DNA of 64,000 nt. It comes from Alkalibacterium sp. (GTDB lineage: Bacteria; Bacillota; Bacilli; Lactobacillales; Carnobacteriaceae_A). Location: positions 124,001-188,000 of the forward strand of contig JAFIFE010000023.1 of assembly GCA_020832185.1 (NCBI GenBank). Reading direction: 5' to 3'. Of the stretch, positions 4,183 to 59,531 are shown piece by piece; the first letter of the stretch is position 1, and each line of letters opens with the position of its first letter. Under the pieces are notes generated by a model that saw only the letters and a list, made by a program, of their open reading frames with translations, searched no databases and was not told the origin of the DNA. The translations under genes and the position numbers were made by a program.

Positions 4183-5262
4183 ATGAAAACAACTTTTCGC
4201 TGGTATGGCGCTGGAAATGACACCGTTTCACTTTCAGATATTCGCCAGATTCCATCGATGCACAGCGTGGTCTGGGCACTTCATGATCTACAGGCTGGAG
4301 AAATATGGCCAGTCGATCGAATACAGGAAGTGAAAGATCAGGCAGCAGAATATAAATTAGGTATTGATGTAGTCGAATCAGTTAATATTCATGAGTCTAT
4401 CAAGTTAGGGACTGCTGAAAGAGATGACTATATTGAGAATTATAAAGAAACATTGCGTCATTTAGGAAGAGTTGATGGCGTCAAAGTCGTCTGTTACAAC
4501 TTTATGCCGGTCTTTGACTGGGTGCGAACAGACATGGCTAAAGAGCTTGAAGATGGATCAACGGCGCTGTTTTACGAAGTCGACAAGATCGAAGGGGTCG
4601 ACCCTTACGAACTAGTTGAAAATGTGAAGAAATCTTCCAGAGGAATGACTTTACCAGGATGGGAGCCTGAACGACTCGAGAAAATCGAAGAATTGTTTAA
4701 AGCTTACGAGAATGTTTCAGAAGACGATCTCTTTAACAACCTGGCTTACTTTCTGAAAGAAGTTGTTCCTGTGGCAGAAGAAAACGGCATAAAAATGGCA
4801 ATTCATCCTGATGACCCTCCATATCCCGTCTTTAATTTACCACGCATCGTGCGCAGTAAAGAAAATCTGCAGCGTATAGTGGATATTATAGACAGCCCGT
4901 CAAATGGGTTGACGTTATGTAGTGGAGCATTGGGGTCTAACCCTAATAATGATGTACCGGATATGATTCGTACATTTAAAGACCGTATCCCGTTTGCTCA
5001 CATACGAAATGTTAAAGTATTTGAGAATGGCGACTTTATCGAAACCTCTCACAGAGAACAAGATGGGTCAGTTCCTATCCTCGAAATAATGAAAGCGTAT
5101 CATGAAATCGGATTCGAAGGATATATGCGTCCGGATCATGGCAGACATTTGTGGGGAGAAGAAAGCCGGCCAGGTTATGGGCTGTACGATAGAGCACTGG
5201 GCATTATGTATATGATGGGTGCCTGGGATATGCTGGAAAAGCAAAAAAATGAAACGCGCTAA
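4183..5262 (+). CDS. uxuA: D-mannonate dehydratase
   Basis: This 359-residue protein of the UxuA family (TIM-barrel, metal dependent) converts D-mannonate to 2-keto-3-deoxygluconate. The N-terminus MKTTFRWYGAGNDTVSL and the blocks WALHDL, CYNFMPVFDW, AIHPDDPP and MRPDHGRHLWGE are characteristic. The length is normal for the family. GGGGG lies before the ATG. It follows aguA in the operon and takes the product of the fructuronate reductase encoded at the start of the window, completing glucuronate breakdown towards KDG. Confidence 0.95.
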   Translation: MKTTFRWYGAGNDTVSLSDIRQIPSMHSVVWALHDLQAGEIWPVDRIQEVKDQAAEYKLGIDVVESVNIHESIKLGTAERDDYIENYKETLRHLGRVDGVKVVCYNFMPVFDWVRTDMAKELEDGSTALFYEVDKIEGVDPYELVENVKKSSRGMTLPGWEPERLEKIEELFKAYENVSEDDLFNNLAYFLKEVVPVAEENGIKMAIHPDDPPYPVFNLPRIVRSKENLQRIVDIIDSPSNGLTLCSGALGSNPNNDVPDMIRTFKDRIPFAHIRNVKVFENGDFIETSHREQDGSVPILEIMKAYHEIGFEGYMRPDHGRHLWGEESRPGYGLYDRALGIMYMMGAWDMLEKQKNETR

Positions 5263-7247: not shown

Positions 7248-7282
7248 TTATTAACCGGGATTTAACTAGTCCCGGTTAATAA
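7248..7282 (+). terminator. Hairpin after the permease pair
   Basis: A perfect 13-bp inverted repeat TTATTAACCGGGA / TCCCGGTTAATAA with a 9-nt loop is followed by an A-rich rather than T-rich stretch. It may be a partial terminator or an RNA-processing barrier separating permease and binding-protein expression. Confidence 0.6.
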
Positions 7283-7293
7283 AACTAAAAAGT

Positions 7294-7331
7294 TGTAACC
7301 GCTTGACAGAAATAGTCCTGGTCAATATTGC
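7294..7331 (+). promoter_or_regulatory. Internal promoter with cre-like site before the binding-protein gene
   Basis: TTGACA (7303-7308), 17 bp, TATTGC (7326-7331). The cre-like TGTAACCGCTTGAC (7294-7307) overlaps the -35 exactly as in the aguA promoter, but there is no XylR operator nearby. It would give the binding protein extra, glucose-sensitive transcription, with a leader of about 190 nt. Confidence 0.55.
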
Positions 7332-7414
7332 AGTAAGTAAAACAATGAGAGGGACTATAACTTATTCTACTCAGTCTGCAGTACTTAATCGATTTTCTCT
7401 GCAGACCTTACTGC
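7330..7414 (+). other. Nested inverted repeats in the binding-protein leader
   Basis: GCAGTAAG (7330-7337) is complementary to CTTACTGC (7407-7414), and directly inside its right arm lies GTCTGCAG (7374-7381) with CTGCAGAC (7399-7406). The outer left arm straddles the predicted -10, so the outer pair would form only in read-through RNA or act at DNA level. Confidence 0.4.
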
Positions 7415-7525
7415 GATAACTTTTCTATGGAAAAACTAAAGGGGTCGATGCCATACGATCAGTTTGACAAATGTTAAGGTATTATTCTGCATTAAAATTA
7501 GCAATACATTCTAAGGAGGAAAACA

Positions 7526-9223
7526 ATGGGTTCATCACTTAAGAAAAAATTATTAGCTGGATTAACTCTTTCAACTGCGACTTTACTGATTGCATGTGGA
7601 GGAGACAATGGTGGAGACACAGATACGGATAACGGTAATGGAAATGGAACGACTACAGAAGAAGGCGAAAACGGCGTAACTGAAGACGAAATCGGTACTG
7701 AAAACGCTATGGAAGACTTCAGTGCAGGCGATACTTTCTATTCTGAAGAGCCTTTGTCATTCTCATTCTTGTATCGTGACCACCCGAACTACCCAATTGA
7801 CGAAGACTGGACATTCTACCAGATGCTGGAAGAACGTACGAATGTAACGTTCGAAAATACAGTTGTTCCTTTATCTGATTTCCAGGAACGTCGTTCTGTA
7901 TTGATCGCAGCTGGGGATGCTCCGGATATTTTATCTAACTCATACCCAGGAGACGAATCACAATTTGTTGGATCAGGTGCATTACTGCCATTATCTGACT
8001 ATGTTCATTTAATGCCTCACTTGTCTCAGCGTATCGAAGAGTGGGACTTGCAGGAAGAATTAGATCAGCTCCGTCAGGCTGATGGCAAATACTATATCTT
8101 ACCTGGTATCGAAGAAAACGTTCGTCATGACTATACTTTGATGATTAACAAAACGGTCTTTGAAGAGTATGGATTAGAAGAACCTAATACATGGGACGAG
8201 TTAAGAGAAGCAATGGAAGTGTTGCGTGATGAAACTGGAAACGTTCCGTTTAACGACCAATGGCAAGGGAATGCATTGATCAACTATGCGGCACCTTCAT
8301 TTGATACAGTAGCAGGATGGGGATTCGGCGGCGGAGTTGTCTTTGATGATGATGCTGAAGAATTTAGATATGCTCCAATGGAAGACGGCTACCGTAACTT
8401 AGTGGAATACTTTGCCGGTCTAGTTGAAGATGGATTAATGGATCCTGAATCATTCACACAAGAAGATGAAACAGCTCAAAATTCATTTAACAATTTGAAT
8501 TCATATGTTATCTCATCTAACTCTCAAACTGTTATTGGTCAGAGAGAATCTATGGATGAAATCCATGGAGAAGGTGAATATGAAATCGGAAAAATTATCT
8601 CTCCTGAAGGACCAGCTGGCCCTTATGTAGGTGGAAGCCGCTTTATCGCTGGATTCATGCTTCGTGCAGACGTGGCTGAACGTGACGATTTCTTAGCACT
8701 CTTACAGTTTGTTGACTGGTTATACTACAGTGAAGAAGGAAATGAACTAGCATGGTGGGGTGAAGAAGGAGAAACATTTGAACGTTCAGATGAAGCTCCA
8801 GGAGGATACATGCCTCTTGATCCAATCACTTATCTAGGACTGAATCCTGAAGGATCTGAACACTTACAGGAAGATCATGGTTTCCGTAACGGAATCATCG
8901 CTTCTGGTGGAACAGACGAACTTCTTCAATCAGTAATGGATGAAGAAGAAATCGAATTCCAGAATGAAACAAATGCTAACAGAGAAGTTATCGATCCTGC
9001 TCCTCCATATCCATTGAATGAAGCAGATCAGGAACAACTAGCATTAATCGGTACACCTCTACAGGATACAACTGAAACGTATACACTTCGTTTCATTACT
9101 GGTCAATATGACTTAGACCGCTGGGACGAATTTATGGCTGACTTAGAGAACCAGAACGTCGACCAGTATCTTGATATCATTAACAATGCTTATCAGGATT
9201 TCCAGTCTAACCAAGCTGAATAA
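7526..9223 (+). CDS. LplA-type extracellular sugar-binding lipoprotein (copy 1)
   Basis: This 565-residue protein has a lipoprotein signal: basic start, hydrophobic core, lipobox LIAC with Cys24. A Gly/Asp/Asn/Thr-rich acidic linker of about 40 residues follows, then the binding domain. It is strongly acidic overall. It follows the LplBC-type permeases and should deliver aldouronates or xylo-oligosaccharides to them. Two paralogues, at 28992 and 57864, share the block EEIGTVGSMEDF-like linker end, the FYRD/LYRD segment and the C-terminal DRWDEFM block. AAGGAGG precedes the ATG. Confidence 0.9.
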   Translation: MGSSLKKKLLAGLTLSTATLLIACGGDNGGDTDTDNGNGNGTTTEEGENGVTEDEIGTENAMEDFSAGDTFYSEEPLSFSFLYRDHPNYPIDEDWTFYQMLEERTNVTFENTVVPLSDFQERRSVLIAAGDAPDILSNSYPGDESQFVGSGALLPLSDYVHLMPHLSQRIEEWDLQEELDQLRQADGKYYILPGIEENVRHDYTLMINKTVFEEYGLEEPNTWDELREAMEVLRDETGNVPFNDQWQGNALINYAAPSFDTVAGWGFGGGVVFDDDAEEFRYAPMEDGYRNLVEYFAGLVEDGLMDPESFTQEDETAQNSFNNLNSYVISSNSQTVIGQRESMDEIHGEGEYEIGKIISPEGPAGPYVGGSRFIAGFMLRADVAERDDFLALLQFVDWLYYSEEGNELAWWGEEGETFERSDEAPGGYMPLDPITYLGLNPEGSEHLQEDHGFRNGIIASGGTDELLQSVMDEEEIEFQNETNANREVIDPAPPYPLNEADQEQLALIGTPLQDTTETYTLRFITGQYDLDRWDEFMADLENQNVDQYLDIINNAYQDFQSNQAE

Positions 9224-9310
9224 TCTCTAATGATTTTTAGTTCTACAATTGATTAGTCTGAAATACCATGACGGAAAGAAACAGTTTTAGACCCTTGCTG
9301 TCTTTCCCAG

Positions 9311-9444
9311 GACAAAAGGTTGTCCTCTGACTATACAAGAGATAAAGTGATGATTCGTCGTTACTAAATGCTCAAGTGAGTGCCTGCACCAGAAGTGAAT
9401 TCATTCCTTCTGGTGGACGCATGCTCAGAGGATGACCTTCTGTC
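9311..9444 (+). ncRNA. Candidate structured RNA element, three stems
   Basis: In the 438-base gap after the binding-protein gene. Outer stem: GACA-a-AAGGTTGTCCTCTGA (9311-9330) pairs with TCAGAGGATGACCTT-c-TGTC (9425-9444), 19 pairs including two G-U wobbles and one mismatch. Inside are AGTGATGA/TCGTTACT with a TTCG loop (9346-9365, two wobbles) and CACCAGAAG/CTTCTGGTG (9387-9415). The wobbles suggest pairing in RNA rather than DNA. No T tract follows, so it is not an ordinary terminator. It could be a 3' stability element or a leader of the next gene; no known riboswitch is recognised. Confidence 0.5.
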
Positions 9445-9661
9445 TGTTTACATAGTTAAAAAGTAATTTATTTACTCCAAAGCGATTTAATTCGCTAAAA
9501 TTGTTCTGTTTTTTTACTAATAAACATGACTTTTTCTTTCTACTTCTGTAAAATAGTAAAGGTAGGGGATCAAAGAATGTGCGTGAAAATAATGAACTCA
9601 TTCATAGTGATCAACCCATATGCAGGCAGACATGCCAAATATGAAAAGTGAGAGGGATTAT

Positions 9662-10360
9662 ATGCGAGACGATTTTAACAAAGATATCGGTGAAGGAAGA
9701 CTGTATAAGATTTCTCAAAACATTTCATGGTTTTTAATTACAACACTCTGGTTCAATTTAAACTTGATTCCATTGTTTTTCTTCTTCTTATTTGTAGAAG
9801 CCACACTGGCAAACTTAGTCTGGTATCTCATCGGACTTATTCCATTGGGGCCGGCTATAGGAGCGCTTCTTGGCTCCACCATGCATGTTGTGGAAGACGA
9901 TGATTTTTCAGAGCCAGGGAGAGATTTCAGAAAGTATTACCGCCAGAATGTGTGGGACACCCTCAAAATCTGGATGCCTTACTTAATAGTGATATACCTG
10001 TTTTCAGTGAATATCAATTACTACTTTAGTATTGCAGGCAGTCAATATGTTCTTTTAGGGTATGTGTTTGCACTGCTTATTCTAATTTTAACCTTGTATT
10101 TCATTCCTGTTCTTTTGATTCAGATCAAATTTTCATTCAGGTACAAGGATCTGCTGAAGCTTGGCTGGTATTATTTTTTTATGAAGCTAAAACTCACCAT
10201 CGGCAATTTCTTAATTATTTTCATCCTTGTCTTTTTACTGTTAGCTATATCTGAATGGTTATTGCTGGCTATTCCAGCCGTGCTGGCCTATATTTGGACG
10301 CTTTATAACTACAGCATAGTAAAAGATGTAAAAGCTAATTTTGTTAAGGAAGAAGAGTAA
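9662..10360 (+). CDS. DUF624 (YesL-like) membrane protein
   Basis: This 232-residue membrane protein has about five hydrophobic segments. The N-terminal GEGRLYKISQNISWFLITTLWFNL pattern and the motif LGPAIGALLGS are typical of DUF624/YesL proteins, which often sit beside sugar ABC importers and have no established function. The start at 9662 is preferred because GAGAGGG lies before it; an upstream in-frame ATG at 9620 lacks a clear site. A second family member is encoded at 37434, beside the first AraNPQ-like system. Confidence 0.8.
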   Translation: MRDDFNKDIGEGRLYKISQNISWFLITTLWFNLNLIPLFFFFLFVEATLANLVWYLIGLIPLGPAIGALLGSTMHVVEDDDFSEPGRDFRKYYRQNVWDTLKIWMPYLIVIYLFSVNINYYFSIAGSQYVLLGYVFALLILILTLYFIPVLLIQIKFSFRYKDLLKLGWYYFFMKLKLTIGNFLIIFILVFLLLAISEWLLLAIPAVLAYIWTLYNYSIVKDVKANFVKEEE

Positions 10361-28991: not shown

Positions 28992-30659
28992 ATGAAATCA
29001 TTATCTAAAAAATATTTATTGACGAGTGCTACTCTATGTGGCGCATTGCTGTTAGCAGCATGTAATGGTGACACAGCTGGATCAGAGTCGGAAGAAGAAA
29101 TTACAGAAGATGATATTGGATCAGTTGGAGCTATGGAGAGTTTTGAATTTGGAGATACGTTTGTAGCCACTGAACCACTAGACATCAGCATTTTATATAG
29201 AGATTTACCAGCTTATCCGCTGGATACAGACTGGTTGTTTTTCCAGGAATTAGAAGAAAATAATAATGTCACTTTTGATATTACTAGTGTTCCTCTATCT
29301 GACTGGGAAGAACGACTAAACGTGACAATGGGTGCAGGGGACTTGCCTGACTATTCTACAGATATCTGGTCAGGTCATGAAACACCATTCGTACCTTCAG
29401 GCACGTTGCTGCCAATTTCTGACTATACTCATCTGATGCCTCACTTCCAGCAGCGACTTGAAGACTGGGAAGGCGTAAATGAACAGATTGAAAATATGCG
29501 TCAACTGGACGGTAAATATTATGTCCTGCCTGGAATCAATGAAAATATTTCTTTTGACTTCAGTATGAAATACAACAAAACAGCCTTTGACGAATATGGC
29601 ATCGAAGAGCCTCAGTCATGGGATGAATTGAGAGACGCTTTAGTTATCTTAAGAGATGAAACAGGTACTGCTCCACTAACAACCTGGTGGCAGGGAGGAG
29701 CTATGTTTAACTTCGGTGGCGCTTCATTTGACACAATAGGTGGATGGGGCTTCATGGATGGCGCTATGTTTGACCATGATACAGAGCAATTCGTTTATGG
29801 TCCAATGCAAGATGGCTATAAAGACATGGTAGAGTACTTTGCTGGATTAACAGCTGATGGATTAATGGATCAGGAAGCATTGACACAAGATGATCAGATG
29901 GCTAGAAATAAACTAATCAATCAGGAAGCATTTGTCAGTTCTGGTAATGTCGGAACGATGACTGACGTTAATGAAGGCTTAGATGATCAATATGGTGAAG
30001 GCGAAGTTGAATTTGCCAGATTACCGATTCTTGCCGGACCAAACGGACAGAAAATGCGTGGAGGAAATACTAACAGTGGAATCATGCTGAATGCAGATGT
30101 TGCTGAAAGAGAAGACTTCCTTGCGTTACTTCAATATATTGACTGGCAGTACTACAGTGACGAAGGAACTGAATTCTCTCACTGGGGTGTAGAAGGCGAA
30201 ACATTTGAATACACTGATGAATTGGCTGGTGGTTATAAACCTGTTGAGGGAATCCGTTACGAACGTATGAACGTTGGTGCAGAAGAACACATGCAGGAAG
30301 ATTACGGATTTGGGAATGTGGCATTTGCTTATGCAGGGCCAGCACATATTCGTCAATCGATTATGGAAGAGAAAGAATTCAACTATCAGTCTCGCATGAA
30401 TGACGAAGTTGAAATCATCCTACCTGATCCGCCACGTCCTATGTCACCGGCTGACCAGGAGCAGGCATCATTATTGGCTACTCCACTACAAGATACAGTA
30501 GACCAATATACATTCAGATTTGTTACTGGACAATATTCTATGGATCGTTGGGACGAATTTATGGCTGAACTGGAAGCTCAGAACGTTGATGCATTCATGG
30601 AATTAGTGAATGAAGCTTATGTAGAGTACCAGGAAGCTATCGAAGCTGCAACTGAATAA
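28992..30659 (+). CDS. LplA-type extracellular sugar-binding lipoprotein (copy 2)
   Basis: This 555-residue lipoprotein has the lipobox LAAC with Cys24, a short acidic linker, then the binding domain. The in-frame ATG at 28971 is rejected because GGAGG sits directly before 28992. It is a paralogue of the proteins encoded at 7526 and 57864 (shared FVATEPLDIS, YRDLPAYPLD-type segment, VDQYTFRFVTGQYS, DRWDEFMAEL). No permease gene adjoins it; it is flanked by terminators and probably feeds the LplBC-type permeases encoded at 5291-7238. The ligand is unknown. Confidence 0.88.
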   Translation: MKSLSKKYLLTSATLCGALLLAACNGDTAGSESEEEITEDDIGSVGAMESFEFGDTFVATEPLDISILYRDLPAYPLDTDWLFFQELEENNNVTFDITSVPLSDWEERLNVTMGAGDLPDYSTDIWSGHETPFVPSGTLLPISDYTHLMPHFQQRLEDWEGVNEQIENMRQLDGKYYVLPGINENISFDFSMKYNKTAFDEYGIEEPQSWDELRDALVILRDETGTAPLTTWWQGGAMFNFGGASFDTIGGWGFMDGAMFDHDTEQFVYGPMQDGYKDMVEYFAGLTADGLMDQEALTQDDQMARNKLINQEAFVSSGNVGTMTDVNEGLDDQYGEGEVEFARLPILAGPNGQKMRGGNTNSGIMLNADVAEREDFLALLQYIDWQYYSDEGTEFSHWGVEGETFEYTDELAGGYKPVEGIRYERMNVGAEEHMQEDYGFGNVAFAYAGPAHIRQSIMEEKEFNYQSRMNDEVEIILPDPPRPMSPADQEQASLLATPLQDTVDQYTFRFVTGQYSMDRWDEFMAELEAQNVDAFMELVNEAYVEYQEAIEAATE

Positions 30660-57863: not shown

Positions 57864-59531
57864 ATGAATTTGAAAAAATCTTTGATGTTGAGTCTTACGC
57901 TAAGCGGGACATTATTATTGGCTGCGTGTAATAATAATGATGATGGAGCGGCCACTGATACAGGTGAGGGTGATGTAACTGAGGAAGAAATCGGCACAGT
58001 TGGGTCGATGGAAGATTTTAGTGTAGGGGACACATTCGTAGCCACAGAACCGCTGGATATTAGTCTTTTTTACAGAGATTTGTCAGCTTATCCATTTGAT
58101 CCAGATTGGCGATTTTTTGAAGTACTGGAAGAGGAACATAACGTTACTTATGATGCAATTGCCGTTCCTTTATCAGACTTTGAAGAAAGACGTTCAGTTA
58201 CAATTGCGGCAGGAGACATGCCGGATTACGTTACTGACTCTTGGCCAGGAGTTGAAAGTGAATTTGTAGCTTCAGGTGTTATCCTACCTATTTCTGATTA
58301 TGTTCATCATATGCCTCACTTCCAGGATCGTGTTGAAAGATGGGGACTTCAGGAAGAGCTTGACAATCTAAGGTACTTGGATGGTAAATATTACGTATTG
58401 CCAGGTATGCATGAAAATGTTCACTTTGACTTTGGCTTGAAATATAATAAAACTGTATTTGATGAATATGGCATCGAAGAGCCAACATCATGGGACGAGT
58501 TAAGAACAGCCCTTGAAACGTTAAGAGACGAAACAGATACTATGCCAATGACACTCTGGTGGCAGGGGAATGCAACGTTCCTGTTTGCAGGTCCTTCGTT
58601 TGACACTGTAGGAGGATGGGGCTTCGGAGATGGCGCAATGTATGATGAAGATGCAGATGAGTTTGTGTATGCGCCTCAGCAACAAGGGTACCGAGACATG
58701 ATCGAATATTTTGCAGGGCTGGTTGAAGACGGATTACTGACACCAGAAGCATTTACCCAAGATGGGGAAAGAACAAGAAATCAATTGGTCAACCTGGAAT
58801 CTTTTGTCAGTTCTGGACAAGCATTGACTATGGCTGATGTGAACGAAGGATTAGATGACAGAGATGACGATACTGAATACGAAATGGTTAGAATGCCGAT
58901 GCTTGATGGACCAGCAGGACCTAAAGTAGGCGGAAGCCGTTTAGTCAGTGGGGTCATGTTCAATGCTGATGTAGCTGAACGAGACGACTTCCTTGCATTA
59001 CTTCAATACGTTGACTGGTTATACTACAGCGATGAAGGAAATGAATTTGCACAGTGGGGAATAGAAGGAGAAACGTACGAGAAAACAGATGAAGTCGCTG
59101 GTGGGTACAGACCACTGGACGGTATCGGATACGAAACCTTTAATCCTGGTGCTGAAGAAAGTCTACAGGAAGATTACGGCTTTGGTAACGTTGCATTCGC
59201 CTTTGCAAGTAACTCTGAAATAACACTGTCTAAAATGGATGCACAGGAAATCGATTTCCAGCAGGCCATGATCGACAGTAGAGAATTAGTCAATCCTGAC
59301 CCTCCTTACCCAATGTCACAAGCAGATCAGGAGCAGGCAGCATTGATGTCTACACCACTGAAAGATACAGTCGATCAATACACTATGAGATTTATCACTG
59401 GTCAATATTCGCTTGACCGCTGGGATGAATTTATGGACGATCTGGACAATCAGAACGTCGATGCTTACATGGATCTGATCAATGAAGCATATAGAGAGTT
59501 CCAGGATACACTTGATGAGATAGACGAATAA
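57864..59531 (+). CDS. LplA-type extracellular sugar-binding lipoprotein (copy 3)
   Basis: This 555-residue lipoprotein has lipobox LAAC with Cys22, an acidic linker and a binding domain closely related to copies 1 and 2 (shared EEIGTVGSMEDFSVGDTF, FVATEPLDISLFYRDL and DRWDEFMDDL blocks). Unlike copy 1 it has no permease genes beside it, and unlike copies 1 and 2 it is preceded by an AraR operator. It may supply arabinose-containing oligosaccharides to the permeases encoded at 5291-7238. GGAGG precedes the ATG. Confidence 0.88.
   Translation: MNLKKSLMLSLTLSGTLLLAACNNNDDGAATDTGEGDVTEEEIGTVGSMEDFSVGDTFVATEPLDISLFYRDLSAYPFDPDWRFFEVLEEEHNVTYDAIAVPLSDFEERRSVTIAAGDMPDYVTDSWPGVESEFVASGVILPISDYVHHMPHFQDRVERWGLQEELDNLRYLDGKYYVLPGMHENVHFDFGLKYNKTVFDEYGIEEPTSWDELRTALETLRDETDTMPMTLWWQGNATFLFAGPSFDTVGGWGFGDGAMYDEDADEFVYAPQQQGYRDMIEYFAGLVEDGLLTPEAFTQDGERTRNQLVNLESFVSSGQALTMADVNEGLDDRDDDTEYEMVRMPMLDGPAGPKVGGSRLVSGVMFNADVAERDDFLALLQYVDWLYYSDEGNEFAQWGIEGETYEKTDEVAGGYRPLDGIGYETFNPGAEESLQEDYGFGNVAFAFASNSEITLSKMDAQEIDFQQAMIDSRELVNPDPPYPMSQADQEQAALMSTPLKDTVDQYTMRFITGQYSLDRWDEFMDDLDNQNVDAYMDLINEAYREFQDTLDEIDE

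Follow-up and report, generated by a model that had tools for sequence, protein, structure and literature searches.

A conserved branched RNA fold between a solute-binding-protein gene and a DUF624 gene in Alkalibacterium, probably part of the 3' UTR of an ABC-transporter operon

We describe a conserved RNA fold that is under selection, is tied to the junction between an ABC-transporter solute-binding-protein gene and a DUF624 gene, and is present as a single strong copy per genome. The plus strand is favoured, rather than proved, as the functional one. The element probably belongs to the 3' UTR of a permease-permease-binding-protein operon, where it would act as a leaky terminator, as a barrier to 3'-to-5' exonucleases, or as both; transcription as an operon, termination, read-through, protection of the mRNA and binding-protein excess are inferred.

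Results

The element and its locus

The window, that is, the whole 64-kb stretch of DNA analysed here, belongs to a 2.64-Mb genome of Alkalibacterium type and carries, in this order, a UxuA-family gene, two ABC permease genes, the solute-binding-protein gene, the element, the DUF624 gene, a GH43 beta-xylosidase-type gene and a xylulokinase gene. The first-pass annotation had placed a three-stem structure between the binding-protein and DUF624 genes, and the element indeed lies there, with 49 nt between the stop codon of the binding-protein gene and the first hairpin, P1. An aldouronate-type substrate of the transporter is plausible, judged from the neighbouring genes; the nearest relatives of the binding protein among solved structures are distant (best E 5.9e-16). 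The features of the locus are as follows.

4183-5262: UxuA-family gene
7526-9223, plus strand: ABC-transporter solute-binding-protein gene (Pfam SBP_bac_1, E 1.2e-13)
9273-9307, plus strand: hairpin P1 (9273-9279 with 9301-9307, 9282-9285 with 9297-9300), two bases 5' of P2
9310-9330, plus strand: 5' arm of the outer stem P2, from the predicted fold and a five-species alignment
9334-9378, plus strand: arm P3 of the branched inner domain, with a UUCG loop at 9354-9357
9380-9422, plus strand: arm P4 of the branched inner domain, an inverted repeat with a perfect 9-bp stem
9425-9445, plus strand: 3' arm of P2, from the predicted fold and a five-species alignment
9438-9457, plus strand: imperfect U-rich tract leading to the conserved tail, UUCUGUCUGUUU into UUUACAUAG(U)
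9526-9554, plus strand: candidate promoter for the unit downstream, with ATGACT and TAAAAT boxes 17 nt apart (a consensus match only)
9662-10360, plus strand: DUF624 gene, the first after the element; its start was set by comparison with relatives, and the longest ORF begins at 9620

Folded as RNA, positions 9300-9460 reach -59.5 kcal/mol against -37.3 +/- 3.8 in 200 dinucleotide-preserving shuffles (z -5.8), none of which was as low; the minus strand also folds better than its own shuffles, though less so than the plus strand (z -4.9). The outer stem P2 pairs 9310-9314 with 9441-9445 and, past an A9315/C9440 mismatch, 9316-9330 with 9425-9439. It encloses a branched domain of 94 nt and is therefore not the stem with a short loop of a canonical terminator. 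The outer stem, the UUCG-capped stem and the 9-bp stem that had been claimed at 9311-9444 are all present in the sequence and in the predicted fold, the second of them with its two wobbles at 9346-9353 paired with 9358-9365, and the third with nine pairs between 9387-9395 and 9407-9415. Some details of that description needed correction. P2 has 20 pairs, not 19, the terminal G9310-U9445 having been left out, while its two internal wobbles stand; and 9311-9444 holds the core stems of a larger element, which also comprises P1 on the 5' side and the conserved tail to about position 9457. The reported lack of a T tract was partly right, since UUCUGUCUGUUU (9438-9449) contains eight U in 12 positions with four C/G interruptions. 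The foot of P2 is rich in A on its 5' side and rich in U on its 3' side, which continues into this tract. A simple terminator scan found the 3' part of the element to be terminator-like, but through a different, shorter hairpin.

Boxes resembling those of the candidate promoter, at the same 17-nt spacing, were seen by eye in four of the five species that carry the element, and were not found in the remaining one (G002); a promoter scan returned fewer promoter-like sites than in shuffles.

Other conserved spots were observed around the element. Just before DUF624, at 9601-9660, there is a second block conserved with the relative G003, which includes TTCATAGTGAYCAACCCATATG and continues as far as the ribosome-binding site. 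A perfect 13-bp hairpin without a T run (7248-7282) immediately follows the second permease gene, and this spot carries hairpins of differing sequence in the other four species too; together with the element, it leaves the binding-protein gene bracketed by stem-loops. The 5' leader of the binding-protein gene (7290-7525; L065-L068) contains TGTAANCGCTTGACAGAAA and ATGAGA, conserved in five species, as well as a GGGG..CGATGC block shared by four species and absent from G007. At up to two mismatches TGTAANCGCTTGACAGAAA has its sole occurrence per genome here in the five genomes, and a single two-mismatch match was found in G008. A cre-like or promoter role for these leader blocks is a guess, and comparison over the species did not support a conserved overall fold of the leader.

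Occurrence among relatives

The element was found once each in five of the 12 genomes of the genus, namely those of the window, G002, G003, G007 and G009. These are all five genomes with the binding-protein/DUF624 pair, and none of the seven congeners lacking the pair has it (E 0.01). A DNA search of 99 genomes retrieved a 70% identical region in G003, short arm-and-tail matches in G007 and G002, and matches of about 20-45 nt in ten further genomes (E 8e-4 to 0.0072). The fifth copy, in G009, was exposed by a protein search with DUF624, which detected the gene in five of 60 genomes, all of the window's genus; close orthologs of the binding protein occur in the same five of 99 genomes. A separate protein search of named genomes recovered two relatives of the window's DUF624 gene, in Alkalibacterium olivapovliticus and A. 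putridalgicola.

R1, a covariance model that covers the outer stem and the tail and was built from the five copies, scores them at E 1.8e-18 or better, values that hold by construction. Searched against 60 relatives with stricter filters, it gave nothing beyond the five at E 0.01 except the reverse strand of the G009 copy, the next match being at E 0.056. Against 27 genomes of the family it gave two extra matches, both in G002 (E 0.0015 and 0.0044), which on inspection were ordinary terminator hairpins with T runs. No model match was obtained at 25 loci of binding-protein homologs from other genera, drawn from 398 genomes of the class with at most three candidates scored per genome. Rfam 15 (4227 models) had no match in the 64-kb window at the gathering threshold, and at relaxed thresholds the homologous loci produced weak matches only, none of which fell on the element. 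No publication on the element was among the literature matches listed. A dispersed repeat or MITE was considered and rejected, as the window's own genome has one full match and the other ten are 14-20 nt long.

Maintenance of the base pairs

Homologous regions lacking the pairing, on whose absence the first-pass annotation had staked its claim, were looked for, and the fold was present in all four relatives that have the locus. In each of the five species the P2 domain is far more stable than its shuffles (z -7.2 to -8.1; none of 300 shuffles each as low). The inner domain folds in every species, with two inner stems in four of them and a single one in G002. A P1 hairpin is predicted in all five as well, the 40-nt region scoring between z -1.25 and -3.91 (-2.54 in the window) and being weakest in G002, where 38 of 300 shuffles were as low.

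Between the window and G003, RNAalifold identified 56 common pairs, none of them broken, with five changed on both sides (two in P3 and three in P4) and 11 changed on one side. Pair retention was then assessed with the window's own minimum-energy fold, G003 not having been used to choose the structure. Of its 62 pairs, 57 are kept in G003, four are broken and one is gapped, with 27 substitutions in paired columns. When the substitutions were dealt at random among paired columns, a mean of 13.8 pairs were broken, with a minimum of 7 in 100,000 trials and of 6 in a repeat of 50,000, against the four observed. The reciprocal test also gave four broken pairs (null mean 12.1, minimum 5 in 50,000). 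By the same test, the adjacent downstream sequence did not differ from chance (P 0.08 and 0.33), and for the leader 5' of the binding-protein gene P exceeded 0.2 in 15 of 16 ordered comparisons, the exception being the window's fold on G003 (P 0.007).

Across the five species P2 has standard pairs in 95.9% of 98 pair cells and two pairs changed on both sides; in this alignment an extra A shifts the foot of the window's arm by one column, and three of its foot pairs scored as broken do pair in the window's own fold. The covariation of P2 alone in five sequences is modest, its score being reached by 20 of 500 shuffles and its two-sided changes by 44 of 500, partly because P2 is so conserved.

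As for the strand, the plus fold keeps 57 of 62 pairs in G003 and the minus fold 49 of 61; on the window's plus fold, the G003 sequence forms eight G-U and one A-C combinations. The minus strand of the P2 domain also folds well (z -5.6 to -7.0 in the five species) and beats its own pair-retention null (P 0.0002 and 0.0008), an effect of the shared palindrome, so that the choice of the plus strand follows from the difference between strands and from gene orientation. The compensatory changes and the better pair retention of the plus strand support the earlier view that this is a functional RNA fold and not a DNA operator.

Conserved sequence in stem and tail

Relative to G003, changes affect none of the 35 positions of P1, five of the 41 in the P2 arms, 36 of the 94 in the inner domain and none of the ten in the tail. 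Since P1 is identical in G003, it carries no covariation information in that comparison; its sequence differs in three of the four relatives. Beyond G003 there is little alignable sequence in the inner domain, and the UUCG loop is not conserved (UAAA in the aligned loop of G003). The P2 arms and the tail UUUACAUAG are recognisable in the distant species too, and the tail (9447-9455, UUUACAUAG / TTTACATAG) is identical in all five. To judge from these alignments, selection seems to act on sequence in P2 and the tail, and mainly on pairing in P1 and the inner stems. A small protein was rejected as an explanation of the locus: the region 9224-9660 has only three ATG-started ORFs (20, 41 and 58 aa), and the length differences of aligned stretches are not all multiples of three.

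The tail motif is not a genome-wide signal: among 12 genomes TGTTTACATAGT has eight copies, against seven for a reversed control, and four of the eight are the element itself. Three of the other four copies lie within ORFs and one (L081, in G007) is intergenic, behind a T run. Within the window TTTACATAG occurs once, with 0.83 copies expected by chance. At seven further loci, among them L015, L017 and L020 from the weak DNA matches in ten other genomes, five of the seven tail motifs are outside long ORFs or at an ORF edge (L044), three of those five (L040, L042, L044) having been picked by the tail-containing model and hence not being independent. At L073, on contig C5 of G009, a paralogous binding-protein gene has behind it a canonical terminator that runs into UUUUUUACAUAG, the element's own tail, which suggests that the conserved tail sits at the position of a terminator tract; the next gene there resembles the GH43 gene of the window. 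This locus was picked by protein likeness, and the chance of a coincidental tail among 12 paralogs is about 2% by an estimate made by hand from the expectation of 0.83. We also observed an ordinary intergenic hairpin running into UUCUUUAUUUACAUAGUG, similar to the element's tail, at L040 (contig C7 of G015, another member of the family; motif position 1534 on the reading strand), a locus that entered through a model match at E 0.118 and is thus not independent.

In ensemble calculations the tails of the window, of G003 and of G009 are largely free of pairing, and the five species have no tail partner in common; the G007 tail pairs immediately 5' of P1, the others weakly or with nearby downstream bases.

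Some other binding-protein genes are also followed by stable structures; the folding covered 14 of the 25 loci from other genera. The structure after one of them, L075, is equally stable (-74.5, z -7.5), which means that stability alone does not set the element apart. Strong stem-loops, with z -7.5 and -4.4 over 230 nt, also lie behind the paralogous binding-protein genes of the window at 28998-30635 and 57867-59510 (53 and 58% identical).

Discussion

If the element acts as a leaky terminator, an exonuclease barrier or both, P1 would fold as the polymerase leaves the binding-protein gene, and the branched inner domain would then close into P2, whose 5' foot, rich in A, would pair with its U-rich 3' counterpart. 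Leaky intrinsic termination at the interrupted tract would release part of the polymerases, and the remaining ones would read on into the DUF624, beta-xylosidase and xylulokinase genes, a unit that may also have its own promoter. The very stable stem would stop 3'-to-5' exonucleases, so that the binding-protein mRNA would build up. The opposition between functional RNA and terminator drawn in the first-pass annotation is unsupported: a leaky terminator or 3'-end protector would agree with where the element lies, with the A-rich and U-rich sides of its stem base and with its interrupted U-rich tract. Nor is there support for the sugar sensing hinted at in that annotation, as neither the loops nor the junction are conserved.

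Several other binding-protein genes of the genus are followed by better U tracts than that of the element, and terminators do not need conservation of their stem sequence, so that termination alone leaves the conservation of P2 and the tail unexplained. Both the poor tract and a tail conserved beyond any plausible release point would be expected if the element were a site of processing and stabilisation without termination, the operon being transcribed through, an endonuclease cutting in or after the tail and the stem protecting the upstream fragment. Stem-loops of this kind have a precedent in Clostridium cellulolyticum, where 28 of 33 such structures lack a U run (PMC4423207). However, the candidate promoter between the element and DUF624 makes through-transcription unnecessary, and the paralog with the same tail at L073 has a canonical terminator; we regard processing alone as rather unlikely.

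Its branching, a stability above the published range, its extra hairpin, its place after a 3'-end gene and the kept sequence of P2 and the tail leave room for specific recognition. The element might thus represent a new class of 3'-UTR regulatory RNA, in which P2 and UUUACAUAG would be bound by a specific protein or RNA that sets read-through and mRNA life according to the supply of xylan sugars, a proposal that we consider distinctly unlikely.

It is doubtful to a high degree that a metabolite, a protein or an antisense RNA decides whether P2 forms and hence how much transcription reaches the xylosidase and xylulokinase genes. Such a conditional switch would suit the near abutment of P1 and P2, the conserved sequence of the P2 arms and tail, the catabolic genes downstream and, in G007, the possibility seen by eye that the 5' strand of P1 pairs with the tail. 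Yet the loops and the junction, where a ligand would be expected, lack conservation, and in G002 there is just one inner stem; the tail lacks a shared partner over the five species in the ensemble calculation, and no Rfam match falls on the element. Pairing of the tail with the 5' strand of P1 in G007 was rejected, the ensemble calculation not supporting it. A riboswitch was also rejected, as there are no conserved unpaired aptamer nucleotides: the changes relative to G003 crowd into the inner region and the conserved positions are in P2 and the tail, the reverse of the conserved loops and junction that a ligand-binding RNA would show.

The element is stable and compact, and its conserved 3' tail stays largely free of pairing in the window and in G003 and G009, properties that would also befit a 3'-UTR-derived small RNA acting in trans through this tail. 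This is very improbable, since no conserved promoter was seen before P1 and the stretch from the stop codon to P1 is poorly conserved. A chance fold, a mobile repeat or a DNA operator, to which the palindromic 5' and 3' arms might point, is scarcely credible given the single copy in its own genome and the one strong copy in each of five genomes, the widely varying arm spacing, the compensatory changes and the lack of matches in plasmid (E 1e-5) and phage (E 0.01) collections.

The double role of leaky terminator and 3'-end protector is suggested by likeness to the elements described in three papers (PMC9045158, PMC4423207 and PMC8060035). The closest are the internal terminators associated with binding-protein genes (Wu et al. 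2022, PMC9045158). In that study, stem-loops after Ruminiclostridium cellulolyticum binding-protein genes terminate 20.7 to 96.1% of transcripts in reporters; such loops contain less U than canonical terminators and have longer stems, and in Types III and IV the stem is interrupted and then resumes in a paired foot poor in U. The element shares with them its position directly downstream of the binding-protein gene and, with Types III and IV, the long stem, the 1-nt interruption and the paired low-U 3' foot; an A/C mismatch or one-base bulge followed by a paired foot ending in UGUC or UGUCU is found in the folds of all five species. Binding-protein excess is the effect proposed for both. The types described there are single stem-loops with no additional structures and energies of -38.3 to -10.1 kcal/mol, whereas the element is branched, reaches about -59.5 kcal/mol, has a second hairpin on its 5' side and ends in a conserved tail. 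Moreover, the binding-protein gene before it is a 3'-end one and the genes after it are non-transporter genes, whereas the published cases are mainly 5'-end: according to the same study, stem-loops occur in 87.3% of Clostridia regions with 5'-end binding-protein genes and in 23.5% of those with 3'-end ones.

With the stem-loops of selective RNA processing and stabilisation (SRPS) operons (PMC4423207, PMC8219983) the element shares a very stable stem-loop 3' of a gene that is to be over-represented. Stem-loops at processed 3' ends of C. cellulolyticum go with higher levels of the upstream mRNA and were proposed to be protective (PMC4423207). The SRPS loops mostly lack a U run, and orthologous loops with conserved sequence have been reported, but the fold of the element is more complex. 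In Bacillus subtilis, termination with NusA/NusG can take place at hairpins that have A-U/G-U pairs in the foot and an interrupted U tract (PMC8060035); such foot pairs and tract interruptions recur in the element, but those hairpins are described as weak, whereas its stem is long and very stable, with G-C pairs in the foot as well.

Most likely, then, the element, which is not in Rfam, is a more elaborate form of the known stem-loops of binding-protein genes. It reveals strong selection on RNA structure at the very place believed to set the binding-protein excess of ABC importers, and does so for a genus beyond the Clostridia and Escherichia coli treated by Wu et al. (the word 'Lactobacillales' is absent from PMC9045158). 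With its conserved stem and tail around a freely changing core, the element is a defined object on which to study whether 3' ends of this kind are recognised or passive.
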